From: a virus
IMG/VR virus record: IMGVR_UViG_3300009285_005282
Location: 55,737 to 119,736 of that record
Reading direction: 5' to 3' (one strand)
DNA: 64,000 bases
Shown here: positions 26,254 through 63,390 of the stretch, one piece after another
How the letters are laid out: every line of letters starts with the position of its first letter
How positions within the stretch are numbered: position 1 is the stretch's first letter
Made by a program: the position numbers and the translations under genes
Notes under the pieces: generated by a model
Seen by the model: only the letters and a program-made list of their open reading frames with translations
Told to the model about the DNA's origin: nothing
Database searches by the model: none

Positions 26254-26301
26254 ATGAGCTACGGAATCCACGATCACGAGGTGTGCAATGGCGCGGCTTG
26301 A
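26254..26301 (+). CDS. possible 15-residue leader peptide overlapping the RNA polymerase start
   Basis: An ATG at 26254, preceded by GGAGACGGTC, opens a 15-codon frame (MSYGIHDHEVCNGAA) that ends 14 bp inside the polymerase coding sequence in another frame. The polymerase ATG itself has only a weak GAGG before it, so reading of the leader could deliver ribosomes to that start. This is a suggestion from layout only. Confidence 0.3.
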   Translation: MSYGIHDHEVCNGAA

Positions 26302-35026: not shown

Positions 35027-35028
35027 CA

Positions 35029-48293: not shown

Positions 48294-49133
48294 GTGGTAA
48301 CTGCAACCATGAACGGACACGGTGTCGACCCCGATTACCTGCGCCTGTTGGGTAAGCGGGCCAGCGCCGAGCACGTACAACACGGTACGGGTCTTACCGA
48401 CGCCGTGACGTCCGTGCTACGCACCGAACCGGGGCTGACTCCGGAGCATGTCGCACGGGTAACGGAGTTTGCCAACCACGCGACCTTTGACACGCTGTTT
48501 GACAAGAGCGCCGGGCACAAGGTCGTCGACTTCACGGGCGGACCAGCCGATCGTGAACAGGTGCTGCGCGCCCTACGTGGTAGTCTCACGCCAGACGTCG
48601 AGAAGGCGGCGAGCTACACGCTGTTGCCGGAAGAGCAGTTTCTCCCGGGTGCGGAAGCACTGCGGTGGACTTCACCCCAACGGGTCAAGGTCGCACACGA
48701 GGACGTACGAACGGACACCCGTGGTGAACACCCCTTGCGGGTGATGTTCCAGCTCAAGGAAGCACGAGATGTGCTGTACGACCGCCTGCGGAAGCAGCAG
48801 CACCTCTATGAGAAGACCTCGGACGTGCTGCGCAAGGAGGCGCGGGCAGCGATCATGTCGGGCCACTCCCCGACAGAGATCTACCGCGTCTTCGACCTGC
48901 GGTCGCCACACCCTGTTCTGACCAAGCTCGCGCTGCAGGTTGCCGCATCGGGTGTGGAGGACCTGCCGGCAGTCCTGGAGAAGCGAGCGGAGCAGCGAAC
49001 GCCAAACGACGAGCATCCGCTCTGTGTGTCCTTCGACGACTTTGTGAAGATTGCCGCTGCGCAGTTCCAACTGATCGCCGCGGTGGACAGTGTAGACACG
49101 CAGATTCAGCACTGTAGGAGGAGCGCATGTTGA
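48294..49133 (+). CDS. unknown virion-type protein, first of the capsid-region operon
   Basis: A 279-residue protein, GTG at 48294 (AAGGGG upstream); an ATG at 48309 is an alternative. Mostly helical. Near the N-terminus is LRLLGKRASAEH and near the C-terminus FVKIAAAQF, both of the Lys-x-Ala type. Contains YTLLPEEQFLPGAEAL and VMFQLKEARDVLYDRL. No family recognised. As the operon's first gene ahead of protease and capsid it is likely an assembly or inner-capsid protein. Confidence 0.55.
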   Translation: MVTATMNGHGVDPDYLRLLGKRASAEHVQHGTGLTDAVTSVLRTEPGLTPEHVARVTEFANHATFDTLFDKSAGHKVVDFTGGPADREQVLRALRGSLTPDVEKAASYTLLPEEQFLPGAEALRWTSPQRVKVAHEDVRTDTRGEHPLRVMFQLKEARDVLYDRLRKQQHLYEKTSDVLRKEARAAIMSGHSPTEIYRVFDLRSPHPVLTKLALQVAASGVEDLPAVLEKRAEQRTPNDEHPLCVSFDDFVKIAAAQFQLIAAVDSVDTQIQHCRRSAC

Positions 49134-49525
49134 CCTCACACGGTTTGCTGCAAGCAGCAGAGATGGTTCGCCGTACGCTGGAGAAGCAAGCGGCCCTGGC
49201 GGATGCTACGGTCAACGCCGGCCGCGCCACTGGTGGTGCGATGGGGGCGTTGTACAACCTCGCCGGCACGGCAACGAAGGAAATCGGCGGGGGTACGCAG
49301 CACGTGCTCCGCCACATTCCCTACGTCGGTCCGGCTATTGGGTGGGGTGCGAACGCCGCTATCCGTGCGGTACCCTGGGCAGCCGGTGCTTACGGCGCGG
49401 TCAAGGCGGATGACGCCGCGGGACAGCCTGTCCGCGGAGCAGCGCGTCAGCTGTGGTTGGCGCATAAACTTCGACAGGCGCAGCGGGGGGCGACGTTCGA
49501 CCCGAACATGGGGGTGATGTACTGA
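49127..49525 (+). CDS. small glycine-zipper virion-type protein
   Basis: A 132-residue protein, ATG at 49127 with AGGAGGAG before it, overlapping the previous gene by 7 bp. The N-terminal helix contains RRTLEKQAALADATV, the recurring Lys-x-Ala motif. Gly/Ala-rich segments (GRATGGAMGALYNLAG and AIGWGANAAIRAVPWAAGAYG) form a likely hairpin. Basic end. Similar in build to the proteins at 35029 and 40065. Confidence 0.6.
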   Translation: MLTSHGLLQAAEMVRRTLEKQAALADATVNAGRATGGAMGALYNLAGTATKEIGGGTQHVLRHIPYVGPAIGWGANAAIRAVPWAAGAYGAVKADDAAGQPVRGAARQLWLAHKLRQAQRGATFDPNMGVMY

Positions 49526-50322
49526 TGAACCCCATCGACCGCTTCCTCAGTAACGAACCGGAAGAGCAAGTCAAGACGGCGGGCTTCTGGGGCTCCTTGG
49601 GAAAGTTCGTCGAGAAGAACCAGGGCGTTACCGCTGCGGCGCTCACTGTCGCCGCCCCGGCCGTTGTCCTGGGTGTCCAACACGGTCTTGGGCAGCTCAA
49701 ACAGGTGGTGGACCGCAGCCGTGGCTTCAAGGCCATGATGGCTTCGGGCGGGCAGGAACTTCAGGACATGCCTGCTGCACGGGCGAAGTCGTTGTACAAC
49801 ACGTTGCACGTGGTAGCACCCACCCTGGCGCAGGACCCCAACATCGCCAAGTCATGGGTCAAACGTATGGCGTACCAAGAGGAGTACGTCGACCCAAAAA
49901 CCCTCAGCGACTTGGCAACCGCTGAGAGCCGCCTTGCCAAGGGGCTTGAGTATCCTGGTGCCCAGGTGGGACTGGCGCTTGGACAGCAGGTGGGTGCCTA
50001 CGACTTCACGCGTGCCCCCCGTGAGCAACGGGCAGCTCAGGAGCACGGGTGGAAGGGTCAGCAGGAGGTTCGGCAAGCAACTGAGCATGGGTGGAAGGGT
50101 AATCTAGAAGCTCGACAAGCGACTGAGCACGGGTGGAAGGGTCAGCAGGAAAGTCGGCAAGCAACTGAGCATGGGTGGAAAAACACGATAGTGGACCACG
50201 AGCACGCGCTGACCCGTATGCAGTACGACCAGATGCTGGACAAGCTGCGGTATGGTGCGCCCACCGAGCAAAATCCGAAGCCCGGGTACTTTCCAGACCC
50301 TGGCTACAACCGCACTCCATGA
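49525..50322 (+). CDS. virion-type protein with EHGWKG tandem repeats
   Basis: A 265-residue protein, ATG at 49525 overlapping the previous stop. It starts PIDRFLSNEPEEQVKTAG (Lys-x-Ala motif) followed by a hydrophobic segment (AAALTVAAPAVVLGVQHGL). The middle is helical. The C-terminal ~95 residues contain four copies of a 14-residue unit (E-H-G-W-K then a Gln/Arg-rich spacer). It ends with an ATGA overlap into the prohead protease gene, suggesting that it works in prohead assembly. Confidence 0.6.
   Translation: MNPIDRFLSNEPEEQVKTAGFWGSLGKFVEKNQGVTAAALTVAAPAVVLGVQHGLGQLKQVVDRSRGFKAMMASGGQELQDMPAARAKSLYNTLHVVAPTLAQDPNIAKSWVKRMAYQEEYVDPKTLSDLATAESRLAKGLEYPGAQVGLALGQQVGAYDFTRAPREQRAAQEHGWKGQQEVRQATEHGWKGNLEARQATEHGWKGQQESRQATEHGWKNTIVDHEHALTRMQYDQMLDKLRYGAPTEQNPKPGYFPDPGYNRTP
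50041..50181 (+). repeat. 42-bp in-frame tandem repeat, four copies
   Basis: The codon for Glu of E-H-G-W-K recurs at 50041, 50083, 50125 and 50167, an exact 42-bp period; the fourth unit is partial. The copies differ by several substitutions, so the array is not brand new. A natural site for length variation between related phages. Confidence 0.8.
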
Positions 50323-53300
50323 TCGTCAAGCAATGCCAGTTCGCGGGGCGGGATGACACTGGGGAGCATATCCACCTTCTTCACCCCGGGTATGACAATT
50401 TCGAGCTCATGAAAACTGCCTCCGAGGAGGTCTCCCCACCGCAGCTCGAACGGGTGCGGGCGTTGATGCGCGATCTACCTCGGGAGACTGGGCGACTGTA
50501 CGCGCTGATCAGCGCCTTGGGAGCTTCCGAGTACTGGGGCTCGAATTCAAACGCTGATGACTTCGACACGGAGGCATTGGTGCGTGTACCGCCCGGTTGG
50601 TGGGAGCTACCCTACGAACAGCAGGTGCAGCTTGGAAAGAGGTGGGAGTGGGGATTCCCGACCTTTTACAACGCACATCTTTTCGCACACCACTGCTTTG
50701 TTGGGGGCACGCCAATCGTTATGGGGGACCGCACGCGCATCCCTATTGACCGGGTTCGTGCCGGTGACCTTGTGGCTACGCGAACAGGTCCCAAGAAGGT
50801 CACCCGCACTACTTCAAGAAAGTACGTCGGTGTTGGCACAGCGCTGACATTACAAGGGGTAGACACCCCGTTAGTTGGGACGCCGGACCACCCTGTTCTG
50901 GTACTGCGCCGTAAACAGGTTCATTGTCGCCACAAGTACAATAAGCTCGCGGCGTCAGAGCACCTAGCGCAGTGTGTGCAGGCACGAGAACCGATAGGTG
51001 CCCCTCAATGGGTGCCATTGGGAGAGGTACAGTTGGGAGATTACCTCCTAACGCCCGGTCCTATAACCGGAATCGAGACGCTTGAGCCTGAGTTTGCAGA
51101 GCTAGTAGGCTGGGTGGCCGCGGACGGGTATCTCGGCAAGAGGGGAACTATTCAATTTTCGTTTTCTTCAACGGGGGAAAAGCTAACATTGGTTGAACAG
51201 TGCCTTCGACGGAACAAATTACACGTAGGTGTGACCCCCCGTCTGCAGTACGGCGTGACGATGCTCAGCGCGTGCAGCGCAGCGCTCTCAAAACGCGTGC
51301 GTTGCTACGTAGTTGGGACAACTTCCGAGAAGCGACTAACCGCTGAAGTTCTCAAGTGGGACGTCGAAGCAAGACTGCAGTTGATTGGCGCCTATAGTGA
51401 CGGAGACGGATGTGTAACACCGGCAGAACTGCCTAACCGGGGGCAACTTCGGATTCGTAGCGCGTCCTCTCAAATGCTCTTTCTTCTTGCGGACTTAGCC
51501 CGTTCTCTGGGGGTGGCCGGAAGTATAAATTGGGATAGTCCCAGCGGTCCGATGATTTCTCCAACAAACGGGAAACAGTATTGGGGCGGTCCTTCCGGCT
51601 GTCTGGCGGTTGGGGCTAGCGGCGCAGCGGACCTGCTCAAGACCTGTCAGCGACTCAAGCCCGTAGCTCCGTATAGAAATTGCAGAGTTTACCCGTTTGA
51701 AGGCAGCATGTTCCTGGTGAAGGTGGTAGACAGCGATCCGGTTGAATTGAACGAGAACGTGTTCAACCTGGAGGTTGAAGATGAGCATGAGTATATCGCC
51801 AACGAAGTAGTCGTTCATAACTGTAACAAAGATCCCAATCGAGCGTTCGGGGACATTATCCATTCCGATTGGGACTCCCGAATGCACCGGGTGCTGCTCG
51901 TTGGCGCGTTTGACCACGATCGCGCACGTCGGTTTGGCGGACAGTCCGCGGTCGAACGTCTGGAGAACGGGGAATACCTTTCGGTCTCGATGGGTACAAA
52001 AGTTCCTTTCGATCTTTGCAGCTACTGTGTGGACTACGCTCGGGTGCTTCCACTACGCCCCCACCCCCAGCAAATTTTAGCTGAGCATCGCCAGAACCCA
52101 ATACGCGGTCTGAACGTCACCATCCGTGACTACTGCGAACACCTACGTCGGGAGAAGAACCACATTTACCCCAACGGGGTACGGGTCAGTATGCTGAACT
52201 GGCATCCACGTTTCTTCGACCTGTCCTGCGTGTTTGTGGGTGCCGACAAAACCTCGTTCGTCCTGGCCAAACTTGCGCACGAGTGCCCAATCCGTCCGGG
52301 GGTCAAAGAGTGTGGTAACTGCCCCCACGAAGAGTGTGTTCCATCGGCCCACGTACACGAGGTCTGGAGCAGGGACATGCAGAAAACAGCGAGCCCCACT
52401 GTGGACCTGCTAGCGCAGCGCCTTCAAGAGGCACGGGCCAAAACCGCTACCGCCAACAAGTCGGCGTTCGACAAGCAGTCGGAGATCTACAAGGACGTTC
52501 CTCCCAACGTGGGTCAGGTGCTGGCGCCGGTCACGGACGCCGAGCCCGACCTTCCAGAGGAGGTTGTGCGGGAGATGGCCCAGGACCCGGAGAACACACT
52601 GGCCTCCGGGCTGTCGATGGGGGTCATCGCCAAACCTCACGAGTTCCAACGGGTGATGCTCCACTCTACCAGGCGCGGTGACCTGGCTGAGGACTTGGAG
52701 CAACGCGGGTTGACGTTCCGTACCGGCGCACCTCCAGAGGGGTTCTGCCTGGGACGGGAGCTCCTCCCGCGCATCCTGGAGCTGCTTCTACCGTTGGTGG
52801 CGGCGCGCAGTATGCTGTCGCGTCCGCTGGCCAAACGAATCATCGCCACCGGCGGGCGAACGGGGGACATGATCCACCTCCACCTACGCGCCGACGCTGA
52901 CACACCGGACGCGGCGTTGGAGATGGCCTTTCAGAAGTGGTTGGGCGCTCGTCGTGAAGCCAACCGTACCCGCACGGCGTTGGAGGACCCGCTCATGGAC
53001 AAGCTGAGCGCAGCGTACTCCGCCTACCGGCGCGACGCGGTTTACGCAGCACCGGAGCTGCTGCGTCGAGGACTGTTGGAGCACACCAAGCTAGCGGAAG
53101 CGCTGTGTGATAGCGACCTTTACACCCCCGGGCTTGCCAAGACGGCGGGGGACGTGCTTGAATTAGTTGGAATGGCGTCCGTCGCGTACCTCAACGGAGC
53201 ATATTTGAAGGAACCTGCTTCGCAGTATGTGGCGACGCACTGTAACCTGTCCGGCCTGGAAAAGGCAGCCGGACTAGCACGGCTGAGTGGGGTCGCGTAG
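50319..53300 (+). CDS. prohead protease (with intein) fused to long C-terminal region
   Basis: A 993-residue frame; the ATG at 50319 overlaps the previous stop (ATGA). The N-terminal extein ends FYNAHLFAHH. After intein removal it continues CNKDPNRAFGDIIHSDWDS, the His-His-x-N-K-D-P pattern of large-phage prohead core proteases, with EYLSVSMGTKVPFDLC carrying the probable catalytic Ser. Cys-rich ECGNCPHEEC lies further on. The C-terminal ~350 residues are helical with many Lys-x-Ala motifs (QKTAS, AKTAT, EKAAG) and may be scaffold-like. The protease would mature the capsid and process motif-bearing proteins. About 617 residues remain after splicing. Confidence 0.8.
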   Translation: MIVKQCQFAGRDDTGEHIHLLHPGYDNFELMKTASEEVSPPQLERVRALMRDLPRETGRLYALISALGASEYWGSNSNADDFDTEALVRVPPGWWELPYEQQVQLGKRWEWGFPTFYNAHLFAHHCFVGGTPIVMGDRTRIPIDRVRAGDLVATRTGPKKVTRTTSRKYVGVGTALTLQGVDTPLVGTPDHPVLVLRRKQVHCRHKYNKLAASEHLAQCVQAREPIGAPQWVPLGEVQLGDYLLTPGPITGIETLEPEFAELVGWVAADGYLGKRGTIQFSFSSTGEKLTLVEQCLRRNKLHVGVTPRLQYGVTMLSACSAALSKRVRCYVVGTTSEKRLTAEVLKWDVEARLQLIGAYSDGDGCVTPAELPNRGQLRIRSASSQMLFLLADLARSLGVAGSINWDSPSGPMISPTNGKQYWGGPSGCLAVGASGAADLLKTCQRLKPVAPYRNCRVYPFEGSMFLVKVVDSDPVELNENVFNLEVEDEHEYIANEVVVHNCNKDPNRAFGDIIHSDWDSRMHRVLLVGAFDHDRARRFGGQSAVERLENGEYLSVSMGTKVPFDLCSYCVDYARVLPLRPHPQQILAEHRQNPIRGLNVTIRDYCEHLRREKNHIYPNGVRVSMLNWHPRFFDLSCVFVGADKTSFVLAKLAHECPIRPGVKECGNCPHEECVPSAHVHEVWSRDMQKTASPTVDLLAQRLQEARAKTATANKSAFDKQSEIYKDVPPNVGQVLAPVTDAEPDLPEEVVREMAQDPENTLASGLSMGVIAKPHEFQRVMLHSTRRGDLAEDLEQRGLTFRTGAPPEGFCLGRELLPRILELLLPLVAARSMLSRPLAKRIIATGGRTGDMIHLHLRADADTPDAALEMAFQKWLGARREANRTRTALEDPLMDKLSAAYSAYRRDAVYAAPELLRRGLLEHTKLAEALCDSDLYTPGLAKTAGDVLELVGMASVAYLNGAYLKEPASQYVATHCNLSGLEKAAGLARLSGVA
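50694..51821 (+). other. intein in the prohead protease, beside the active-site His
   Basis: A 376-residue insertion (protein residues 126-501). It begins CFVGGTPIVMGDRTRIPIDR (block A), has LVGTPDHPVLVL (block B, T-x-x-H), LAGLIDADG motifs LVGWVAADGYL and LIGAYSDGDGC, and ends NVFNLEVEDEHEYI then VVVHN followed by Cys. All splicing residues look intact. Excision joins AHLFAHH to CNKDPNRAFG. Until splicing the protease active site is split, which would prevent premature cleavage of capsid precursors. Confidence 0.93.
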
Positions 53301-53351
53301 GATCGGACGATCCAGAGACCGCCAACCTGCTGGCCGGTAGGAGAGGATGAG

Positions 53352-54188
53352 ATGAACGAGTTTTTGGCGAATTACTACGGTACCGTAGCCCAAACGCAGG
53401 CCCCTTCCGCCAACGACGAGTTGGAGAAGATGGCCGAACTGACCCTGCTCGCGCAGGAGGCCCAAGCTCAGGGCCTGTCCCTGGAAGGCGTTCCCGAGGA
53501 CGAGCTGCTCAAGATCGCCCACGACCTGTACGGCGGCCCGGACGCCCAGATGGAGAAGGACGCCGAGGCCATGTTGAGGGAGTTCGAGCTCGGCGGGCAG
53601 ATCATGGCCCACGCCTTCACTCGGGAAATGCAAGAAATCGAGAAGGCCGCCGGGATCGGAGAGTGGGCAGGTCGAGCGGGGACTGCGATCAAGAACGCTC
53701 CCGGAACGGTCGCGGAGCATCTCGGTGCGCCTCTCATGGACAAGAGGACGGTAGCGCAGGCTATCGCAGAGTCGCGAGAGGCGGCACGTCAGACCGCCGG
53801 TGCCGCTTACGGCAGCTTGTCCCCCACGGCACAGCGGGAGTTCGATCAGCACGCGCACACGCTAGCCAGTCAGCGGCTGAGCGCGGCGGCACGCAAACGC
53901 GGGTACGCTGCGGCCGGAACCGCGACCGGAGTGGCGGGGCTGGGCGGTGGGGCGATTGCCCTACGCAACCGCGGCAACTCCGAAGAGATGCCCAAGGAGG
54001 GAGCGGCCTTCGATCAACTGGTCGCGCAGCGCGCCTACGAGCACCTGAAGACCGCCGGCTACGACGCCGACGCCTTCTTCGGTGTCGACCAGACGAAGAC
54101 CGCTGCGGATGAGCTGAACATGGCAGTCGACACCGCCGCCCTCCAGTTCTTGGAGGCTCACGGCGTGCCGGTGCAGTGGAATCGCTGA
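53352..54188 (+). CDS. virion or scaffold-type protein rich in Lys-x-Ala motifs
   Basis: A 278-residue protein, ATG at 53352 after GGAGAGGATGAG. It holds at least six Lys-x-Ala motifs (LEKMAE, LLKIAH, MEKDAE, IEKAAG, HLKTAG, QTKTAA), spread over the chain. The first ~100 residues are acidic and helical, and residues ~195-215 are a Gly/Ala-rich segment (GTATGVAGLGGGAIAL). Location directly after the protease and before the capsid gene is the classic place of a scaffold or inner-core protein. If the motif is a cleavage signal, this protein would be cut into many pieces, as scaffolds are. Confidence 0.55.
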   Translation: MNEFLANYYGTVAQTQAPSANDELEKMAELTLLAQEAQAQGLSLEGVPEDELLKIAHDLYGGPDAQMEKDAEAMLREFELGGQIMAHAFTREMQEIEKAAGIGEWAGRAGTAIKNAPGTVAEHLGAPLMDKRTVAQAIAESREAARQTAGAAYGSLSPTAQREFDQHAHTLASQRLSAAARKRGYAAAGTATGVAGLGGGAIALRNRGNSEEMPKEGAAFDQLVAQRAYEHLKTAGYDADAFFGVDQTKTAADELNMAVDTAALQFLEAHGVPVQWNR

Positions 54189-54195
54189 GCAGGAC

Positions 54196-54468
54196 ATGCT
54201 TCGGGTGGAGTATCTGGCAGCAATGATGCGTGAGTTGCTCAAGATGGCAGCTAGCCCCATCGGTGCGGTCAGAGCCCCAACGGTGCCTGGTGTACCGTTG
54301 GGGCGACTCACCCCGAAAGCTCCTGTACCGGTGACTCCGAACTTGGCGAAGGGCGCACCTGGAATGGTGCAACGGACAAATTACACCGCGGTCGCCGCTC
54401 GACCAGCGGCAGTGAATCACGAGCTCACCGCCGGGCAGAAGGCCATGCCGCTCCCAGTGGTGCAGTGA
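54196..54468 (+). CDS. small hypothetical virion-type protein
   Basis: A 90-residue protein, ATG at 54196. It begins MLRVEYLAAMMRELLKMAAS, placing the Lys-x-Ala motif near residue 16, and continues with a Pro/Ala/Thr-rich, probably unstructured chain (GRLTPKAPVPVTPNLAKG). No membrane segment. Possibly a short linker or internal peptide of the capsid. Confidence 0.5.
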   Translation: MLRVEYLAAMMRELLKMAASPIGAVRAPTVPGVPLGRLTPKAPVPVTPNLAKGAPGMVQRTNYTAVAARPAAVNHELTAGQKAMPLPVVQ

Positions 54469-54479
54469 GGAGGCAGGGA

Positions 54480-55907
54480 ATGTTGTCCCTCAACGATCTA
54501 ATCCAGCAAGCGCTGCTGGATGGCCGTCACGGGGCGCTCTCCAAGATCGCTGAGGAGACGTCCGGTGAGGCAAGCAGCGAGTCCTGTGTCGATTGTGGCC
54601 GACCCGCCATTCCGGGCCAACAGCTCTGTCAGGACTGTGCCCAGCGGCGACTCGGCTCGGAGCAGGCAGCCGCGGCCACCAGCGAAGTCGAGAAGACCTC
54701 TTCGGCGCGAGTGGAGCGGCTGGCGAGCGCGGTCGACTTTGCGCTGCGTAACCCGTCCTGGGTAAGCAGCTACGTGAAGCTGGCCGAGGGTGATGGCCCC
54801 GGTGAGGGCGCGGGGGCGCTCGACATGGACCTGACAGCGCCCACGGTCGGCCTTGGTCCGGCCTCTTACCAAGGGTCGAAGGTCAACGCTATCCCGCTGA
54901 CCCCCCCGATGGAGTCCGGCGTGGCTGGCGGGCCGGCCACGGCGATGGGCACGGATATGGACGATACCCCCGGCGGGACCGAGTCTGGTGTGACCAACAA
55001 CATGGGGTCTGCCAAGGTGGCAACGTCGGCTCTCGGTGGCGCTATAGCCGGTGGTCTGCTGGGTACGGGTGTAGGAGCCGGTGTTGGGGCGCTGAGCGCT
55101 CCGAAAGGGCAGCGAGCGGAGGGGGCACGTCGCGGGGCGTTGATCGGGAGCGCCACGGGACTCGTAGGTGGGGGTCTTACGGGGGCAGCTGCCGCGAGCC
55201 GTCTAGCACGTACGCCTGAGGAGGCGCGTACGCTGCAGGGGATGCGCGAGCTGGGGTTCAGAGCGGGCCGCGGCGACCAGGTAGCGCAGCAAACGCTGCA
55301 AGAAGCGCAAAAAATTCTCCGAACGCCGGCCCCGAGGGAACGCGGTGCGAGCATTGCGGGCGCCATCATCGGCGCGGGGGGTGCTATCGGCGGGGGTATC
55401 GCTGCTGGACGTACCGTTCGCAGGCCCGATGCGGAGCAGGTGTCCCCCAAGGTGGCAGCGATACATCGTGTGATGCTCAAACGGGCTCAGCCCGAGGCAG
55501 AAAGTGCTCTACCGGAGAACCGGCCAGATCCGATGGTGCGCCCGGCGGAGGCAACCAGCCAGATGAAGCTGCTCGCGACCAACGAGGCAGCGATCAACTT
55601 CACTCCTCGTGATGCGGCTGTGGTGCCGAAGAAGCAAATGGGCGAGATGCTCGACGAACCCATGCAGAGCGCCTTGGGGGATTCAGCCCTCAAGGATCAG
55701 CTCGGCGCGGCGCTCGTCAACGAAGCTGGGGCCAAGGTCGCCAGCGCGCGACAGACCGTAGCTTCGCTGCTGAAGGTTGCGGGTGAGGGTTGCTCTTGTG
55801 GCTCCCACGGAACCTGCACCTTCTGCAAGGTTGCTTCATTGGCCGAACGGAAGCGGGCTCGACAGGCCGGTGTCGGGAACGCAGTCGTTCCAACGCGGGG
55901 TCGGTAG
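54480..55907 (+). CDS. zinc-ribbon and glycine-zipper virion-type protein
   Basis: A 475-residue protein. The ATG at 54480 has GAGGAGGCAGGGA upstream and is preferred to a GTG five codons earlier. The N-terminal region has ALSKIAEET and a zinc ribbon (CVDCGRPA and CQDCAQ). The centre has a Gly/Ala hairpin (GGAIAGGLLGTGVGAGVG, GSATGLVGGGLTGAA) and a second one (GAIIGAGGAIGGGIAAG). The end has LLKVAGEGCSCGSHGTC, a second Cys cluster. Several Lys-x-Ala motifs. It may span or disturb a membrane, perhaps after ejection from the capsid. Confidence 0.6.
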   Translation: MLSLNDLIQQALLDGRHGALSKIAEETSGEASSESCVDCGRPAIPGQQLCQDCAQRRLGSEQAAAATSEVEKTSSARVERLASAVDFALRNPSWVSSYVKLAEGDGPGEGAGALDMDLTAPTVGLGPASYQGSKVNAIPLTPPMESGVAGGPATAMGTDMDDTPGGTESGVTNNMGSAKVATSALGGAIAGGLLGTGVGAGVGALSAPKGQRAEGARRGALIGSATGLVGGGLTGAAAASRLARTPEEARTLQGMRELGFRAGRGDQVAQQTLQEAQKILRTPAPRERGASIAGAIIGAGGAIGGGIAAGRTVRRPDAEQVSPKVAAIHRVMLKRAQPEAESALPENRPDPMVRPAEATSQMKLLATNEAAINFTPRDAAVVPKKQMGEMLDEPMQSALGDSALKDQLGAALVNEAGAKVASARQTVASLLKVAGEGCSCGSHGTCTFCKVASLAERKRARQAGVGNAVVPTRGR

Positions 55908-55916
55908 GAGAACGAC

Positions 55917-56276
55917 ATGGAAAAGGTTTCAGCACAACAAGTCCTACGCGTGCTCCGAGAGGTGCCCCCTACCCTTCGTAAGCTCGCTGCCGAGCGTGAC
56001 CAGCTCGCCCAGGAGAACCATCAGCTCCGAACGAAGCTGAACCAAACTCTCCTGAACGACCGGGTCGAGAAGCTGGCGCACGAGCTGCACGCCAAACACC
56101 TGCATCAGGGACGCTCCATGGCTCAGACCAGGGAGATCCTGTTGCAGAAGGCGGCGAGTGGCGATCTGCGGGTGGTCGAGGAGGCGATGAAGATCGCTGC
56201 CTCCCCGTCCGTACTGGGATCGGTGGGTGAGGTGCCCTCCGGAGGGAACCGACTGGAGGAGTTCGTTCTCAGCTGA
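55917..56276 (+). CDS. coiled-coil protein upstream of capsid genes
   Basis: A 119-residue protein, ATG at 55917 with AGGAGAACGAC upstream. A coiled coil spans residues ~20-60 (LRKLAAERDQLAQENHQL) and the remainder is helical with Lys-x-Ala motifs (VEKLAH, LQKAAS, AMKIAAS). It may be a small scaffold or adaptor in head assembly. No specific family recognised. Confidence 0.55.
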   Translation: MEKVSAQQVLRVLREVPPTLRKLAAERDQLAQENHQLRTKLNQTLLNDRVEKLAHELHAKHLHQGRSMAQTREILLQKAASGDLRVVEEAMKIAASPSVLGSVGEVPSGGNRLEEFVLS

Positions 56277-56314
56277 CCCCTGGGTAACGACAGGATCACA
56301 AGGAGTGAGGTAAA

Positions 56315-56782
56315 ATGGCAGTCACGTTTCGTTTGGTGGGACCGTACACCCACCTGAGCCTCCCGGTGATGAATTTCGCCCCGGAGGACCCGACTCTGCT
56401 CAACTACAACAACGCGAACCCGTTGGAGCAGGGGGAGTTTCTGACCATCAACGCCAACTATCGTGTCGCGCGCGCTGCCAATCCTGGTGCGCGTCCCGGT
56501 CCCTACCCGCTCTTCACTGAGAAGGGAAGGTCGGATACCCAGGGTATTGCTGGCGGCAAGGTCGCCGTCATCGTGGGTGGCGGTTACATCGCCGAGTCGA
56601 AGATCATCAACGTGGCCGCAGCCCCCGCGCTGGGCGCCGCGTTGGAGGTCGCCAACATCACGTGGAGTGCGCTCACCAAGAGCGGGCTCCAAACTTTCGC
56701 CACCGGTGTCATCGTTGGCTATGTACTACGCCCCGCCGCCTCCAACGACGGCTGGCTGCAGTACATCTCGATGACGGTGTGA
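56315..56782 (+). CDS. probable capsid decoration / head-stabilising protein
   Basis: A 155-residue protein, ATG at 56315 after AAGGAGTGAGG. Beta-rich throughout (FLTINANYRVARAANPG, VAVIVGGGYIAESKII) with no Cys. It lacks the Lys-x-Ala motif of its neighbours. The gene directly precedes the major capsid gene, with 11 bp between them, the usual place of decoration proteins such as gpD-type or Psu-like stabilisers. The name rests on position, size and beta content, not on a family match. Confidence 0.5.
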   Translation: MAVTFRLVGPYTHLSLPVMNFAPEDPTLLNYNNANPLEQGEFLTINANYRVARAANPGARPGPYPLFTEKGRSDTQGIAGGKVAVIVGGGYIAESKIINVAAAPALGAALEVANITWSALTKSGLQTFATGVIVGYVLRPAASNDGWLQYISMTV

Positions 56783-56793
56783 GGAGAGATACC

Positions 56794-57927
56794 ATGAGCG
56801 CAATACCGAATGATGTGTTCAACCGTCTCTTCATGGACAAGCTCAGCACCACCGAGGGTCAAGAGAAGATCGCGGAGTACGGTGGCGAGTACATCCGTGA
56901 CCACCTGCGTGAGGCGCAGTTCTCCCGAGGGATCATCCCGCCGGAGAACATTTCCGCGAACGACCCGCGGGTTCAGATCTCCATGAATCACGACACCCTG
57001 GTCGTCTTGGAGATGCTGGAGCCGCAAAGTCGAGCCATGGCGCTCAACTTCCGTGGTGTCGCGGACGTGCAGCTCATCCGGGCGTCCCGCATGGAGATCC
57101 CGTTCTTCATGATCAGCAGCCTCCGGTTTGAGGCTTACGAGGAGGAGTTGCTGGTGTACCGCAACTTCAAACTCACCAAGATCCTGGAGGACAACCTCGG
57201 CAAGGACATCGGAGACGTCGAGGACCGTGAGTTCACGATCCACGTCGACGCCGCCGTCCAGGCCCTGCAACAGGAGGCGAATGGCGGGGTGGTGACGTCG
57301 CTGCACCAAACCACCATTGCGGCCGGCACCGTCGTGGAGACGGGGGTGCGCAAGGGTGAGCTCGCCCGAGTAGACGCCAACAACAACGCCGTGGTGTGGC
57401 CAATGCAACGGCCCGACGTCGTCAGCGGCCACAAGCTGCTCGACGGTACTCGGCGGCGGTGCGAGAAGGTCCTGCTCAGCGAATCGGACTTCGACGACAT
57501 CAACTCCTGGACCATCGACGACATGGGCTCGCCCAAAGAGTCGGAGTCTCTGATCGACGGGTTCAAGGGTCCGACCCTCATTGGACGCGGCTACGTGCGG
57601 ACCATCAAGACCGAGATCCTCAAGCCCGGCAACCTCTACTTCTTCACCGGGCCGGAGTGGCTGGGGCGGTTCTACATCCTGAACAACGTGAAGTTCTACA
57701 TCGACAAGGTGGGGAACAAACTCACGTTCTTCGCGTGGGAGGACATCGCCCTGTCACTGGTCAACATCGCCAGCGTGCGCAAGGTCGAGACCTACTCGGG
57801 TGACGCTACCGCGAACGACGCCAACGGCATTCGGGCAACGGTAAGCCCGGTCGCCGAGACGGCGCTTGGGGCGCAGTTCAACCGAGTGGACGACGGGGTG
57901 TTCTTCCCGCAGGTCAACTTCTTCTAG
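56794..57927 (+). CDS. major capsid protein (probable)
   Basis: A 377-residue protein, ATG at 56794 with GAGGAGAGATACC upstream. Near the N-terminus is EGQEKIAEYGGEYIRD, a possible protease site that would remove about 24 residues. The body (NISANDPRVQISMNHDTLVV; EPQSRAMALNFRGVADVQLI; VDAAVQALQQEANG) has the mixed alpha/beta make-up of HK97-fold capsid proteins of large phages. It follows the protease, scaffold-type and decoration-type genes and is followed by a strong terminator, as expected for the most highly expressed virion gene. No alternative capsid candidate is visible. Confidence 0.75.
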   Translation: MSAIPNDVFNRLFMDKLSTTEGQEKIAEYGGEYIRDHLREAQFSRGIIPPENISANDPRVQISMNHDTLVVLEMLEPQSRAMALNFRGVADVQLIRASRMEIPFFMISSLRFEAYEEELLVYRNFKLTKILEDNLGKDIGDVEDREFTIHVDAAVQALQQEANGGVVTSLHQTTIAAGTVVETGVRKGELARVDANNNAVVWPMQRPDVVSGHKLLDGTRRRCEKVLLSESDFDDINSWTIDDMGSPKESESLIDGFKGPTLIGRGYVRTIKTEILKPGNLYFFTGPEWLGRFYILNNVKFYIDKVGNKLTFFAWEDIALSLVNIASVRKVETYSGDATANDANGIRATVSPVAETALGAQFNRVDDGVFFPQVNFF

Positions 57928-57957
57928 GCCGTCCTGGGAGGAGAACGCGCTTTTACC

Positions 57958-57994
57958 GAGGCGCGGTGTCGTAACGGCGCCGCGCCTCTTTTTT
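57958..57994 (+). terminator. intrinsic terminator after the major capsid gene
   Basis: Arms GAGGCGCGG and CCGCGCCTC enclose a 13-base loop and are followed by TTTTTT on the rightward strand, a textbook intrinsic terminator. It lies 30 bp after the capsid stop. The next gene begins at 58006, so some read-through or a further promoter is needed; none was recognised in the 11 bp between. Confidence 0.9.
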
Positions 57995-58005
57995 CGGAGG
58001 TAACT

Positions 58006-58542
58006 GTGTCAATCCAGCCTGATTACTTTCTGGTAAGCACCGTTCGTGGTCCCCGTACGCGCACTCAACGGGCAGGAGCCCCTGCTCGTGTGCGTAGAGT
58101 GCAGACTGTCTGTGGCGGTCGTTACCTGCGGTATCAACGCCCGCTGTGCATCACGGAGGCAGAACTACACCAATACGAAATTGAGCTGCACGACCTGTAC
58201 CGCCGTGGGGTACTTCAGGTGCGTCATGGCTCGCCCGTGGGAAAGCTGTACAGCTTCGCACCAGCAGCTCCTTCCTACACGGAGTCCGTCGCCGTGCAGA
58301 CCGAGACACCTCCCGAGCACGCCGAGGTTACACCGTCGGCAGAAGAGGCGACCCCCCCTAGCGGCACCGCGGTGTCCGCGCCGGAGAAGGACGTGCCGGA
58401 GGGGGAGCGCCCGCGTTTCACGGCCATGACCAAGCCCCAGCTGATCGAGTACCTGGGGGCGCTGGGACAACTGGAAGACGGGCTCCAGGACCTGAAACGG
58501 TCCGAGCTCGTCAAGATGGCCAGCAATGCTACAGCTGCATAA
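58006..58542 (+). CDS. hypothetical protein with SAP-like C-terminus
   Basis: A 178-residue protein, GTG at 58006 with CGGAGGTAACT in front. The N-terminal ~85 residues mix strand and helix (RYLRYQRPLCITEAELHQYE). A Pro/Glu/Thr linker of ~45 residues follows. The C-terminal ~40 residues (MTKPQLIEYLGALG to LKRSELVKMA) look like a short SAP-type helix pair that could bind DNA or protein. It overlaps the next gene by 17 bp. Possibly a neck-region component. Confidence 0.5.
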   Translation: MSIQPDYFLVSTVRGPRTRTQRAGAPARVRRVQTVCGGRYLRYQRPLCITEAELHQYEIELHDLYRRGVLQVRHGSPVGKLYSFAPAAPSYTESVAVQTETPPEHAEVTPSAEEATPPSGTAVSAPEKDVPEGERPRFTAMTKPQLIEYLGALGQLEDGLQDLKRSELVKMASNATAA

Positions 58543-58762
58543 TCTGACCCATCGCACTGGCCGTCCGCGGACACTCGTGCTCTACGGGCGGGAGGTACCA
58601 GCCGGGGGGATGGTGATGATCGAGGACACGGTGGAGCTCCGACATATCTCCGGGCTGCTTCGACGTGGCGAGGTCTGGCTGGGGGAGCTGCCCGAGTGCT
58701 ATACTGCGCAGGAGACGCCTGAGCCGCCAAAACGACGCGGGCGTAAGCCCAGGAGATCCTGA
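58526..58762 (+). CDS. small hypothetical protein
   Basis: A 78-residue protein, ATG at 58526, overlapping the previous gene. Beta-rich first half (RTLVLYGREVPAGGMVMIED) and a basic end (PPKRRGRKPRRS) with an AT-hook-like RGRKP. It ends one base into the next ATG (TGATG). Position suggests a head-completion accessory. No family recognised. Confidence 0.5.
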   Translation: MLQLHNLTHRTGRPRTLVLYGREVPAGGMVMIEDTVELRHISGLLRRGEVWLGELPECYTAQETPEPPKRRGRKPRRS

Positions 58763-59289
58763 TGACGGCTCTACAAGGTCTTGACCGCCCTGGACTTCCT
58801 GGAGCTTCAGCACAGTTCAACCACTTCATAGCGCAGGTGCGCCTATTCATCCGTGACTTCCCTGAGCTCAACCGGTTGGTGGCTGGTACCGAGAGTCACG
58901 ATCGGATGATCGCCTTTGCGGTGTGTGACGCGCTCAGCGACTTCAACGCCACTCCTCCGCTTATCGGCGCCTACGGCTTCGACTACTTTGCGGAGCAGGG
59001 GTGGTTACACCCGCTCAAGCTCAAGACGGTCGCGGTACTGCTGGAGTCGGTCGGCATCTTGCAGACCCGTAACCACCTTCCCTTCTCGGATGGTGGGCTC
59101 AACGTCTCCACCAGCGACAAGACCCCGTTGCTCCAGTCCTGGATTCAGCTCTTCGACGGGCGGTGGGAGAACTGGAAGCGCCAGGTCAAGATGTCGCTCA
59201 ACATCGGGCAGTTGCTGGGGCAGGCTTCGGGCATCCCTAGTGAGATGTCCTACATCAACGGCTTCTGGGACCTGACCTCCGAGGTGTAA
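58762..59289 (+). CDS. head-tail connector / adaptor-like protein
   Basis: A 175-residue protein, ATG at 58762 overlapping the previous stop. The segment FIRDFPELNRLVAGTESHDR followed by LSDFNATPPLIG resembles the start of head-completion adaptor proteins of large phages. The rest is helical (VAVLLESVGILQTRNH; WENWKRQVKMSLNIGQLLG). It lies in the usual place for neck proteins after the capsid gene. The specific gp15-like assignment is not certain. Confidence 0.55.
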   Translation: MTALQGLDRPGLPGASAQFNHFIAQVRLFIRDFPELNRLVAGTESHDRMIAFAVCDALSDFNATPPLIGAYGFDYFAEQGWLHPLKLKTVAVLLESVGILQTRNHLPFSDGGLNVSTSDKTPLLQSWIQLFDGRWENWKRQVKMSLNIGQLLGQASGIPSEMSYINGFWDLTSEV

Positions 59290-59292
59290 GCA

Positions 59293-59772
59293 ATGGCTCA
59301 TTGGACGGTACATAGCTTCATTGGAACCGCTGCGATGGCGGATTGGCTGAACGGCTCCCTCATTGGGACGGTGGACCTGGCACCGACCGGGGCGGACGTG
59401 GACACCAAGACGCTGGTCATCGACGACGGCGGTGGTGACCAGACCGTGACTTTCGCACCGGCTCTCGGGCGCAACTGGACCGTGGATGAGATCGCCGCAG
59501 CGATCAACGCCGTCCCAGCGCTGGCTGGGGTGGCCACGGTCTTGATTCGTCGAGGTCTCTACGCTGGTGCCCCGGTCCAGAAGTTCCTGCGTATCATGGG
59601 CGACCCAGCGCACACGATCCGCGCTGATGGTACCGCCAACTCTGACCTCGGGTACGTCGCTGGCGTCTCCCCGGCGGACGATACGGTGCAGGTAATTATC
59701 AACATCACTGAGTGTCACTTTCAGGACTGGCTCCAGCCCAACGAGCAATGGACCGTCCTACGGTACGCGTGA
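59293..59772 (+). CDS. beta-rich virion-type protein
   Basis: A 159-residue protein, ATG at 59293 four bases after the previous stop. The segments TKTLVIDDGGGDQTVTFAP and WTVDEIAAAINAVPALAG followed by FLRIMGDPAHTIRADG have the DGG-TVTF and I-x-A-I-N pattern common in phage fibre or tail modules. A similar segment (VAINVGAALWTGVLRA) occurs in the C-terminal part of the fibre-like protein at 1593-4205. Probably a tail or neck structural protein. Confidence 0.55.
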   Translation: MAHWTVHSFIGTAAMADWLNGSLIGTVDLAPTGADVDTKTLVIDDGGGDQTVTFAPALGRNWTVDEIAAAINAVPALAGVATVLIRRGLYAGAPVQKFLRIMGDPAHTIRADGTANSDLGYVAGVSPADDTVQVIINITECHFQDWLQPNEQWTVLRYA

Positions 59773-59781
59773 GGTGAGCCG

Positions 59782-61476
59782 ATGTTAGACGACTACGTGA
59801 CCGGTACGCACGGAGAAATCCCTTGGGTGGCCGCTGCGGAGTTTTACGCACGGGTTACCCGTCCGGCGGTGCCTGAGGCGAGGATGACCAAACAAGCCAC
59901 GCTCGGCCTGCTCAAACTCGCAGCGCTGAACAAGAAGTGCGAGGACGCTTTACCGCCGCAGGTTGCCGCACTTCAGGCGCAGGCCATGACCGATCCTGAC
60001 GTCGTAGCAGCGTTGGACTGGCAAGAGGCGCAGGCGGAACGACAGGCGCTGCAGGGTACGGTGCAGACGTTAGAGTACCAAGTCTCCGACCTGCAGCAGC
60101 AACAGCAGCAGGTAGTGCAGCAAGCGCAACAGCAAGCTGCCGTCAACCAGCAGCTGCAGGCACAGGTGCAGCAGGCAGTTACCGACCGGCAGGCTGCTAC
60201 TGAGCAAGCTCTGGCAGCGCGGGACAGTGCGCTGCAGGAGCAGGTCGTTGCGCAGCAGAACCGGCAGCAGCTCATGGCAGCAGCGGACCAGCTCGCGCTC
60301 CAACTCAAGCAAGTTGCGGCTCAACCGACCGCCGCGGAGCAAACCGCCATGGCAGGAGCTCAGCCTTCACCTGACGCAGTGGCACCACCCGAAGCGCAAG
60401 GAGTGCCCCTTTCGGCACGCGCTGCACAGGAGACACAGCAAGCGCAAAAAGCGCAGGAGCAGGCGCAGATTCAGGCACAGCAGGCAGCCCAGGCGCAGGC
60501 CGAGGACCAGGCCAAGATGGGCAGCGACCGTGTGGCTGAGCTACGTCGCAGGTTGGCGTTAGCTAAGACCGCCGGAGTCGCGTCCTGGGCCGTGCCGCTT
60601 GTGGCTGGTACGGGTGCGGGTGCCGCGCTCGGTGCCGGCGGAGCGGCCATGGCGGCGCCAGAGGGACGTCGAGCTGCAGCGGCTAAAAGGGGTGCGCTAG
60701 TGGGTGCAGGATTGGGTCTAGCCAGCGGCGGGCTGCACGGGGCAGCTAAGCACACACAACGCGCGGCGGACCTACAGGTGGCCCGCATGCTCGACGAGGA
60801 AAAACAACTCAAAAATTTCATCGAGTTTGCCCCCCGTGGGCTCTCCTTGCACAAGTTAGACATACACGAGTTGCACCCCCATAGGCTCTCCTTCCTCGAT
60901 GAGGAAACGGTGTCGGGGATGAGGAACCGCATCGCGGTTCGAGATGCCGCGGCACGCCGGGTGGTGGGGTTGGGTCTAGCCTCCACGGCTGTCGGTTTGA
61001 CGGCGCTTCCGGCCGGGGTGGGAGTTGGCTTGCACGATCGGTACCGCGCTGCACAGGAGAAGACCGCTGGGGGCAAGTTGACGGCGGGGATGGCGCTTGG
61101 GGGAGCGGCTTTGGGCGCTGGATATGGGGGCGTGTCCGCCATCCGACAGGGACGGCAGGGGCGGGACAAGCCCAACGACCGCGAGCTCGACCTGGCGAAC
61201 CGGATTCAGGTCGCCAAAGCTAAGGCCGAGCGTAGCCCTTCCTACCGGGCCGATGTGCGCATCGCACGGATGCAGTTCCTCAAGGACGTTGCTGAGTCAG
61301 ACCGTAAACATCCTGGAGGGGAAGTGCTCCACAATGCAGTCTCGGGTGCCCTGGCAGGGGCTCTAACCGCGGTCGTAGCTGGGGCAGCGCGGAACAAGTG
61401 GCGAGAGATGGCCAACTTCAACTCCAAGGCGGTAATCGACCGAGCCTTGCAGCAGGTCAGAAAGGCACAGCCATGA
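59782..61476 (+). CDS. long Gln-rich coiled-coil, glycine-zipper protein
   Basis: A 564-residue protein, ATG at 59782 with GAGGTGAGCCG upstream. Near the N-terminus is LGLLKLAALNKKC (Lys-x-Ala). Residues ~75-250 are an extreme Gln/Ala-rich coiled coil (SDLQQQQQQVVQQAQQQA). Further motifs ALAKTAG and QEKTAGG precede two Gly/Ala hairpins (AGTGAGAALGAGGAAMAAP; GMALGGAALGAGYGG). A further hydrophobic hairpin lies near the end (GALAGALTAVVAGAA). This could be an internal virion or membrane-penetrating protein. It is not a clear tape measure, which should be longer. Confidence 0.6.
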   Translation: MLDDYVTGTHGEIPWVAAAEFYARVTRPAVPEARMTKQATLGLLKLAALNKKCEDALPPQVAALQAQAMTDPDVVAALDWQEAQAERQALQGTVQTLEYQVSDLQQQQQQVVQQAQQQAAVNQQLQAQVQQAVTDRQAATEQALAARDSALQEQVVAQQNRQQLMAAADQLALQLKQVAAQPTAAEQTAMAGAQPSPDAVAPPEAQGVPLSARAAQETQQAQKAQEQAQIQAQQAAQAQAEDQAKMGSDRVAELRRRLALAKTAGVASWAVPLVAGTGAGAALGAGGAAMAAPEGRRAAAAKRGALVGAGLGLASGGLHGAAKHTQRAADLQVARMLDEEKQLKNFIEFAPRGLSLHKLDIHELHPHRLSFLDEETVSGMRNRIAVRDAAARRVVGLGLASTAVGLTALPAGVGVGLHDRYRAAQEKTAGGKLTAGMALGGAALGAGYGGVSAIRQGRQGRDKPNDRELDLANRIQVAKAKAERSPSYRADVRIARMQFLKDVAESDRKHPGGEVLHNAVSGALAGALTAVVAGAARNKWREMANFNSKAVIDRALQQVRKAQP

Positions 61477-61790
61477 GCTCGGACGTTTTCGAGAAAGCCT
61501 TTGCTTCTGAAGTACCCATCGGCAGCGCCGCCACTCAGCTGCGCAAGCTGGCAGAGAGCATCGAGGTGCATGGGCGTCGAAGTGAGGAGAGCACGGATCT
61601 TGCCAAAGCGCTGGAGCGGGTCACGGCGAAGAAGAGCGGCTCGGTCACTCGGTTGACCAGCGGCGACGACCGCGAAACCCGTCAGCCCGAGAGGCACCCG
61701 TTGGAGGCGCTTATGATCACCCCCTGCGATGGGCGAACGCGGGTGTGGCCCACATCGCCGCTGGAGCGGCCTCCAACGCGTTCTATGTGA
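61473..61790 (+). CDS. small hypothetical protein
   Basis: A 105-residue protein whose ATG overlaps the previous stop (ATGA). It begins MSSDVFEKAFASEV and has TQLRKLAESIEVHG, two Lys-x-Ala-type motifs. Helical first half, Arg/Pro-rich end without predicted structure (DGRTRVWPTSPLERPP). No known family. It belongs to the neck or tail operon by position. Confidence 0.5.
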   Translation: MSSDVFEKAFASEVPIGSAATQLRKLAESIEVHGRRSEESTDLAKALERVTAKKSGSVTRLTSGDDRETRQPERHPLEALMITPCDGRTRVWPTSPLERPPTRSM

Positions 61791-61799
61791 GCTGTTTGA

Positions 61800-62681
61800 A
61801 TGCTGCGTGTCACCAACCTAGCGGTCCGGTCTTTGGACGTTGACTACCTGGACCTGTTCTGGGAGGTAGAGAACACGTTCGAGGACCCGCTGGACTTCAC
61901 CTTCGTTGTGGAGCGCAGCGAGTCCCCGTTGGGTCCGTGGGACCCGGTGTCCGAGCCCTTCTCCGACCGCTACTTCTTTCGTGACGTCGTCATTCCGTCC
62001 TTCAACCGTTACCGAAAACTGTGGTACCGCATCCGGGTCACCCGCATTCTGGATGACAAGGTAGCCTACTCCGAGATTGACACGCGTGGCCCGGAGCCGG
62101 ATCTCATTGCCTTGGAGGTACGCAGGCAGGAGTTACTGCTCTTTCAGGAGCACATTGGGCGACAGGTGTGGATCTTTCCGATCCGCACGTTTGGCCAGCG
62201 TTGCCCGGCCTGCTACGACCGGGTCCAGCGCGTACGGCTCAAGTCGGCGTGCCTCACCTGCTACAACACGGGGTTCACTCGCGGGTTCATGGACCCTATC
62301 GTGTCCTGGGTGCAGATCGACCCTGCGGTAGAGGTCACTCAGCCCGGACCGTTGATGCAGGACCAGACCCAGAACGCCACTGCTAGATTGCCCTGGTTCC
62401 CGCCGCTCAAGACCGGTGACGTAATCGTGGAGGCGGAGAACGTTCGCTGGGCGGTCAACCCCGTGACCACCACCCAACGGCTGCGAGCGCCACTGCACCA
62501 AGAGGTCACCATACACCACATCCCGGAGTCCGATATTGAATACCGGCTCCCGATCAACATCGACAGCTTGCGGGAACTGCAGCCCAACCCCAAACGGGTC
62601 TTCACCAACCCTCACCATCTGCGTTCGGGGACCTACGTGGACCTGCGAACCGACGAACTCAAAGGATACGACTATGAATAA
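61800..62681 (+). CDS. virion-type protein with zinc-binding Cys and fibronectin-like start
   Basis: A 293-residue protein, ATG at 61800. The first ~95 residues form a fibronectin-like or beta-sandwich domain (LDLFWEVENTFEDPLDF; LWYRIRVTRILDDKVAYS). Residues ~135-165 carry paired Cys (CPACYDRVQRVRL and CLTCYNTGF), a zinc knuckle. The C-terminal part is beta-rich with RLPINIDSLRELQPNP. The pattern resembles structural proteins of large-phage heads or necks whose exact job is not known. It overlaps the next gene by 8 bp. Confidence 0.6.
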   Translation: MLRVTNLAVRSLDVDYLDLFWEVENTFEDPLDFTFVVERSESPLGPWDPVSEPFSDRYFFRDVVIPSFNRYRKLWYRIRVTRILDDKVAYSEIDTRGPEPDLIALEVRRQELLLFQEHIGRQVWIFPIRTFGQRCPACYDRVQRVRLKSACLTCYNTGFTRGFMDPIVSWVQIDPAVEVTQPGPLMQDQTQNATARLPWFPPLKTGDVIVEAENVRWAVNPVTTTQRLRAPLHQEVTIHHIPESDIEYRLPINIDSLRELQPNPKRVFTNPHHLRSGTYVDLRTDELKGYDYE

Positions 62682-63390
62682 CCTACAAGCCCGCGCTTTC
62701 GTTATTGAGCTAGCAGAGCTGGAAAAGTTGGGGCGGACAGGCTCGATCCGACGTGTCTGGGCAAGGCACGCTCCTGCTATCGTAGCCGGGACTGGTGCCG
62801 TACTGGGAGGAGTAAGCGGGGCGCTACACACCGACAACGAAACCCCAAATCCGACAGTGGCGCAGCGAGTACGCAACGCCGCGCTATCGGGTGTGGTGGT
62901 TGGGTCATTGGCAGGGCTAAGTGTGCACGGCATCCGTAGGTTGAAGCGAGCTATGGCGTACGCCCCCAATGCTCAGCTTCGTGCGGCACGGGCTGTTCGG
63001 GAGAACAAGCTGTCGCCGTCGCTCGAGCGCATGATTGACGATTTTGACTTGGCGCAGGCCAAGAAACGCGCCCTGGCGAAGACCGCTACAGAGCAAGTGC
63101 AGCCGCAGCGGCGGGGGACGAACAGCGAAGAGTTCAAGCAGTTTCTCAAGAACACTGGCTACATAGCTCTCGGAACGGGAGTTGGTGTTGGAGGGATGAC
63201 GCTGCTTCGCCCAGTTGCCGAGAAGTACCTGCCCCGAGTCCCCAAGAATATACTGACCCCGGCGGTGGCGCTCACTACTACGGCTGCTGGGGTTGGCGCC
63301 GCCGAGCTCCTACGGCGGTTGGCAGAGCGTAAACGGCAAACGCTCGACGAGGCGTACGAGCGCGGCGAAAGGATGCGGCGTGGCGAGTAA
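62674..63390 (+). CDS. glycine-zipper membrane-hairpin virion-type protein
   Basis: A 238-residue protein. The ATG at 62674 is supported by AAAGGATACGACT and by the 8-bp overlap with the previous gene; earlier codons lie inside that gene. N-terminal FVIELAELEKLGRTG is a relative of the Lys-x-Ala motif, and LAKTATEQV lies in the middle. Hairpins: IVAGTGAVLGGVSGAL with VVVGSLAGLSV, and IALGTGVGVGGMTLL with VALTTTAAGVGAAELL. Basic C-terminus. Another member of the hairpin family of this phage. Confidence 0.6.
   Translation: MNNLQARAFVIELAELEKLGRTGSIRRVWARHAPAIVAGTGAVLGGVSGALHTDNETPNPTVAQRVRNAALSGVVVGSLAGLSVHGIRRLKRAMAYAPNAQLRAARAVRENKLSPSLERMIDDFDLAQAKKRALAKTATEQVQPQRRGTNSEEFKQFLKNTGYIALGTGVGVGGMTLLRPVAEKYLPRVPKNILTPAVALTTTAAGVGAAELLRRLAERKRQTLDEAYERGERMRRGE

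Follow-up and report, generated by a model that had tools for sequence, protein, structure and literature searches.

We analysed the final 64 kb of virus record IMGVR_UViG_3300009285_005282, which is 119.7 kb long (G000:C1:55737-119736; hereafter the window), and found that a short motif, Lys-x-Ala (K-x-A), is concentrated in the head-side proteins of this phage and its relatives. In its full form, [ML]-x-K-[TILV]-A-[SAE], the motif is very probably the recognition and cleavage site of the prohead protease encoded at 50319-53300. The original prediction, made from the window's letters, had offered two readings, a site cleaved by the prohead protease or a tag that targets proteins to the capsid. 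The two are compatible, because in T4 a single element serves as both, its targeting propeptides ending in the cleavage site (PMC9026906). They are supported by the fold of the protease, the sites flanking its catalytic domain, the capsid protein N-terminus, a T4 control set and N-terminal tags shared among unrelated proteins; a cut at these sites is the probable outcome. The genes at 21-63 kb lie mostly on the plus strand and include portal-like, RNA polymerase, terminase, protease and capsid genes; the replication block occupies the minus strand at 6-20.6 kb.

Motif counts in the window were compared with 500 composition-preserving shuffles of each protein, with inteins left out. [LIVMFY]-x-K-x-A occurred 53 times in 31 virion-side proteins (12,531 aa) against 13.7 expected (standard deviation 3.6, shuffle maximum 28), and 8 times against 5.3 expected in 20 minus-strand proteins. 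The enrichment over chance is thus real. The strict pattern [LIVMFY].K[LIVMTAQDES]A was present in 17 of the 31 virion-side proteins, nine of which carry it within the first 40 residues, and in 5 of the 20 minus-strand proteins; this agrees with the earlier count of at least 15 motif proteins between 21 and 63 kb and with their frequent N-terminal placing. The EKIA of the capsid protein (EGQEKIAEY) and several copies in the protease gene were found as claimed. Proteins encoded between the protease and the capsid gene contain one to four strict sites each, with up to six K-x-A in the product of 53352-54188; the six copies, too, are as claimed. Other parts of the prediction had to be narrowed. 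Hydrophobic-x-Lys-x-Ala is present, but the signature is the tighter one given above. The motif had been ascribed to most virion-region proteins; it is concentrated on the head side, is mostly missing from the long tail and baseplate proteins, and has one copy in the RNA polymerase against 2.6 expected, which rules out a general virion tag. The region assigned to it, 48294-63390, does hold the densest block, but motif proteins begin from 21 kb.

The signature extends across relatives. One scan found 454 relatives of the protease; 80 were kept, 75 had the gene called, and an 85% identity cut gave 54 non-redundant loci with 972 distinct proteins (259,944 residues), in which residue pairs were ranked over spacings. 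K..A (K+2A) was the first-ranked pair around the protease gene (3359 vs 1743.3, z 38.7) and exceeded expectation in 54/54 loci, over many different genes. No pair with Glu at +2 was among the 14 top pairs, so the head-protein enrichment of an x-x-E site was not found. A separate ranking of all residue pairs at spacings 1-7 took in the window's plus strand and 16 capsid-protein relatives, 308 called proteins in all, and placed K..A second by z (738 vs 444.9), with only C...C higher. Several motif proteins look helical or coiled-coil, and K+4A, a helical spacing, is mildly raised among the 54 loci (observed/expected 1.24, the next highest K-A spacing), as might be seen if the motif simply arose from head-protein helices and coiled coils that are rich in Ala and Lys. 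The strong excess is, however, confined to the +2 spacing and to Lys and Ala. When the spacing, the Lys or the Ala was altered, it disappeared or fell sharply (R+2A 0.84, A+2K 0.90, K+1A 0.84, K+3A 1.06, and K+2G below expectation), and the sites in the protease and the capsid protein are conserved columns. These spacing and residue controls rule out a helix or composition artefact, to which we give a negligible probability.

The predicted fold of the protease is of the gp21/assemblin type. An intein-free relative (L060, residues 1-283), folded together with 50 others, gave a confident domain (predicted template modelling score, pTM, 0.82). The best solved match to the predicted fold was T4 gp21 (5jbl; Z 9.1, root mean square deviation 2.8, 139 aligned residues), followed by the herpesvirus proteases (assemblins) at Z 5.0-5.6. 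H125 and S181 (SVSMG), invariant in alignments A2 (54 rows) and A3 (51 rows), are the predicted catalytic His and Ser nucleophile. K32, in an otherwise variable leader, is invariant in A2 and conserved at 90% or more in A3. K-x-A stands just before the catalytic domain in 50 of the 54 relatives; in three others the site reads K-x-S or K-x-G, and the remaining gene call is truncated. Strict motifs are depleted within the catalytic part of these proteases (2 vs 7.4 expected) and enriched in the flanks (211 vs 27.3), the pattern expected of a self-releasing protease. In the model, the N-terminal site adjoins a low-confidence loop (predicted local distance difference test, pLDDT, under 50 at 34-38), from which no cut register is readable.

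The capsid gene (56794-57927) lies downstream of the protease gene, as it does in 49 of the 54 loci after a length filter. All 49 capsid proteins have K-x-A in their first 60 aa, and K25 and A27 are invariant among 41 sequences. AlphaFold assigned a pLDDT of 58-66 to residues 1-40 of the capsid protein and 87 beyond. A search with the window capsid protein against the phage record collection gave no match, and sequence searches of the PDB, for which the queries were the D181 protease and the capsid proteins of the window and of D181, gave no credible relative.

The residues around the motif bear on where a cut would fall. Among 2733 K-x-A contexts, M, L, F and I are favoured at -2, E or V at -1 and T, I, L and V at +1; at +3, S, A, E and Q are favoured and I, P and V are avoided. 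Position +3 is thus P1'-like (small or polar, with no I, P or V), and Ser is the preferred P1' residue of the SPN3US protease (PMC10052503). The favoured cut is therefore the one that separates Ala from +3, and we judge that the enzyme probably cuts after Ala rather than after Lys. Cleavage after Lys by the same enzyme at the same sites (L-x-K|) would formally resemble the T4 cut L-x-E|. The hydrophobic residue two before Lys mirrors the hydrophobic P3 of T4, and Lys is the most conserved residue, kept where Ala is replaced by Ser or Gly in three of the 54 proteases. A cut there would, however, put T, I, L or V at +1 and leave Ala as P2', while the small residues and the avoidance of I, P and V are found at +3 instead. 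We consider a cut after Lys somewhat unlikely.

Within genomes the motif follows head genes. In the window's own record, the head block contains 46 motifs against 8.6 expected, the tail block 9 vs 4.5 and the replication block 6 vs 3.0. The corresponding counts are 52 vs 10.1 (head) and 11 vs 8.5 (tail) in the relative G001, and 39 vs 12.6 (head), 4 vs 3.3 (tail) and 6 vs 6.0 (replication) in G003; other regions of the three are close to expectation. The RNA polymerase is depleted of the motif in 33 non-redundant relatives (59 vs 82.4) but not of the Arg analogue (58 vs 44.7). In Salmonella phage Arash, its homologue heads the list of proteins detected in the particle preparation (PMC10585845). 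A protein enclosed together with the protease would be expected to avoid the protease's site.

We asked the same ranking of a T4 control set (gp67, gp68, gp21, gp22, IPI and the N-termini of gp23 and gp24; 907 residues). L..E (20 vs 8.6) and I..E (18 vs 7.7) ranked first and second, and L/I-x-E is the established T4 gp21 cleavage motif. A prohead protease therefore does leave a head-restricted, multi-copy, short-motif footprint. The control also bears on the idea that the motif stays uncut and, while the head assembles, only docks proteins onto the core or onto the protease. Docking would account for near-identical 15-residue tags on unrelated proteins, for the higher motif density in the first 40 residues of the relatives' proteins than in the middle (9.36 vs 5.40 per 1000) and for the full coverage listed for some Arash motif proteins (PMC10585845). 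Many copies are, however, internal to core proteins, and the motif brackets yet avoids the protease domain and is depleted in the RNA polymerase, neither of which a binding motif needs; a cleavage motif yields the same pattern in T4. Docking alone is thus quite unlikely.

The tags are clearest in G001, where seven small proteins start with MID[FY][STA]AF-x-DE[LMF]-x-KIA, a 15-residue tag ending in K-I-A in every case. Five of the seven genes are clustered (L036:10298-12648) and may encode head-delivered cargo. Such clustering would also be produced by recent gene duplication, with the motif excess reflecting ancestry and not function. The remainders of the seven proteins have no similarity at E 0.01, however, and the tags differ at synonymous positions, which rules this out for the tags; the presence of the excess in every one of the 54 loci, spread across many genes of different kinds, likewise speaks against it, and we give duplication a very small probability. 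The MIDF-type pattern was found among viral contigs in G001 and one other contig only, so its exact wording is lineage-specific. Elsewhere, a DnaJ-domain protein and a C92-family peptidase begin with a similar N-terminus. The sigma factor of the window's own record (Sigma70_r3, PHROG sigma factor) has an N-terminal extension ending in E-L-E-K-L-A, which Arash gp10 lacks; in other contigs its relatives begin with short leaders, of which some contain K-D-A or K-E-A and others have K replaced by R or Q. T4 targeting leaders of 10-19 residues are described as addressing proteins to the core, ending in a cleavage site and then being removed by gp21 (PMC9026906), and by analogy the tag may target cargo. 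The sigma factor gene (L019:13372-14130) and a helicase-like gene (L019:8223-12608) lie near tail genes, and the Arash particle proteins listed include a sigma factor and DNA helicases (PMC10585845). This suggests that the sigma factor and the helicase-like protein form a packaged transcription start kit.

We class the system, and no more closely than this, as a gp21/assemblin-fold prohead protease with a K-x-A site set; it is not a glutamate-specific system of the T4 or phiKZ type. It resembles T4 gp21 in its nearest solved fold, in having many core-protein sites and few at capsid N-termini, in a head operon placed before the capsid gene and in the same statistical footprint; it differs in its motif, K-x-A and not x-x-E, and a profile comparison with one T4 gp21 sequence detected no similarity. 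The herpesvirus assemblins are related in fold, as a distant fold match only. They cleave between Ala and Ser, as proposed here, and are not known to have a fixed Lys three positions ahead of the cut. The T4 capsid-targeting sequences (CTS) are likewise short N-terminal elements common to various head-packaged proteins, and T4 propeptides end in a protease site (PMC9026906); the elements here differ in sequence, occur also on the sigma factor, the DnaJ-domain protein and the C92-family peptidase, and are putative in targeting. The phiKZ gp175 and SPN3US gp245 proteases (family S80) also come from large phages with head-packed RNA polymerase, and N-terminal propeptides with several motifs and auto-cleavage are described for them (PMC5694885, PMC10052503), as are identical N-terminal 15 residues in SPN3US gp53 and gp54. 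Their reported specificity is A-x-E or S/A/G-x-E (PMC13282480), unlike K-x-A.

Outside metagenomes, homologous terminase, RNA polymerase and protease (with D181 as query) occur in Arash and in Vibrio phages D181, D148 and D69, at low identity (26% for terminase and 31% for RNA polymerase). Arash and D181 have K-x-A-rich head genes and no K-x-A in the presumed sheath and tube genes. In Bacillus phage G, which has a distant protease homologue, K..A ranks first among the residue pairs of 15 head-side proteins (47 vs 24.2) and is outside the 12 top pairs in 16 other proteins. A search of the main text of the Arash paper for the words protease, prohead and cleav- found none of them in use. A literature search, in which most papers were judged by title and abstract and which is no proof of absence, returned no description of a K-x-A prohead motif.

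Several observations weigh against K-x-A as the cleavage site of the prohead protease. No cleavage product was seen. Table 2 of the Arash paper gives a coverage of 100% for the motif-bearing gp221, gp223 and gp224, 95.8% for gp220 and 86.6% for the capsid protein (PMC10585845); taken literally this counts against it, because complete propeptide loss predicts otherwise. The same table lists other proteins at 100% from 2 unique peptides, and includes ribonucleotide reductase. The phage G capsid protein has no K-x-A, and ten head-side proteins of Mycobacterium phage Pleione, which has a protease homologue more distant than that of phage G, have no K-x-A excess; protease specificity seems to change along the family. 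Comparison of the protease alignment with T4 gp21 by hhalign, with one T4 sequence as target, gave a probability of 0.3% (E 0.24), and the four proteases tested had no match to any Pfam protease family. The G001 replication block, the least clean of the blocks, is slightly raised (10 vs 4.4, z 2.7).

Cleavage at K-x-A, as read from sequence, would act in the following way. Head-building or head-filling proteins would initially carry a short extension that ends in the motif, at the N-terminus or in some cases at the C-terminus, and core or scaffold proteins would have several copies of it. The protease would assemble with the core and, once the prohead is complete, free itself at the sites flanking its catalytic domain. 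It would then trim the capsid protein after about 27 residues and cut the core proteins to pieces, making room for DNA. On the small cargo proteins and the sigma factor, the N-terminal element would probably double as a head-core address, as the T4 CTS does.

Table 1. Motif-bearing genes, predicted sites and control genes in the window.
Feature	Position	Strand	Basis or remark
Virion-side protein	21079..22245	+	Motif count: three strict motifs (114, 148, 174)
Fused beta/beta-prime RNA polymerase, two probable inteins	26288..35026	+	Rpb1/Rpb2 domains; internal control avoiding the motif
Small protein	35014..35430	+	Motif count: N-terminal motif HRLSKLAVD
Virion-side protein, 656 aa	36838..38808	+	Motif count: nine motifs vs 0.3 expected, first at residue 10
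Head-side protein	48309..49133	+	Motif count: five motifs
Small protein	49127..49525	+	Motif count: N-terminal motif RTLEKQAAL at residue 18
Protein with N-terminal EEQVKTAGFW	49525..50322	+	Sequence; variant with Gln two before Lys
Prohead (capsid maturation) protease, 617 aa plus intein	50319..53300	+	Relative's fold nearest T4 gp21; motifs on both sides of catalytic domain
K32-T-A34 codons of protease, predicted N-terminal auto-processing site	50412..50420	+	K32 conservation in alignments
Intein within protease gene, 376 aa	50694..51821	+	Intein_splicing and Vint matches; coordinates from alignment numbering; outside the motif system
Core/scaffold-like protein	53352..54188	+	Sequence and motif count: six K-x-A sites
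90-aa protein with tag-like N-terminus (MLRVEYLAAMMRELLKMAAS)	54196..54468	+	Sequence
Head protein	54480..55907	+	Motif count: several K-x-A sites (20, 98, 430, 448)
Short protein directly 5' of capsid genes	55917..56276	+	Repeated motifs (20, 50, 76); layout resembles Arash gp225
Major capsid protein, 377 aa	56794..57927	+	PHROG major head protein, weak (4.7e-4); K25-I-A27 is the predicted maturation site near the N-terminus
K-I-A site codons of capsid protein	56866..56874	+	Sequence; counted from start 56794
Protein with motif SELVKMASN at extreme C-terminus	58099..58542	+	Motif count
564-aa protein	59782..61476	+	Motif count: motifs at 35, 43 and 260
105-aa protein	61473..61790	+	Motif count: N-terminal motif TQLRKLAES

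Four probable inteins were seen in this one phage, two in the RNA polymerase and one each in the terminase and the protease. The RNA polymerase is a single 2912-aa fusion whose insertions at 776-1131 and 1762-2240, absent from a relative, look like inteins (Hom_end, LAGLIDADG_3, Intein_splicing), and a LAGLIDADG intein interrupts the terminase large subunit (41991-45089) at about residues 126-537. Between the terminase and the head genes, 45392-46357 and 46422-47387 (minus strand) encode adjacent 321-aa pentapeptide-repeat-like proteins with very similar C-terminal parts. Elsewhere in the record, L018:18491-18814 and 1342-1653 encode predicted proteins of short xI/xV repeats ('VAKIGVAKISVAK...'), which are probably low-complexity repeats.

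We are evenly divided on a wider proposal, that the big tailed phages of one large clade, mostly uncultivated and represented by 454 protease relatives in one scan, use a non-glutamate code, [ML]-x-K-[TILV]-A|[SAE], which doubles as a head-entry address and marks portable packaged cargo (sigma factor, C92-family peptidase, DnaJ-domain protein and small-protein arrays), with the co-packaged RNA polymerase selected to avoid it. If this clade-wide code is true, head-packed proteins could be listed from sequence alone. The accounts available describe cleavage during capsid maturation in few large phages (T4, phiKZ and SPN3US), and in each of these the motif contains glutamate. A different, sequence-readable specificity would fix the maturation sites of hundreds of uncultivated phages. 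The K-x-A code would explain many small unknown genes as tagged head cargo, with the isolate Arash as a test system, and would show the extent of specificity drift within a single protease fold, to which the herpesvirus maturation proteases also belong.

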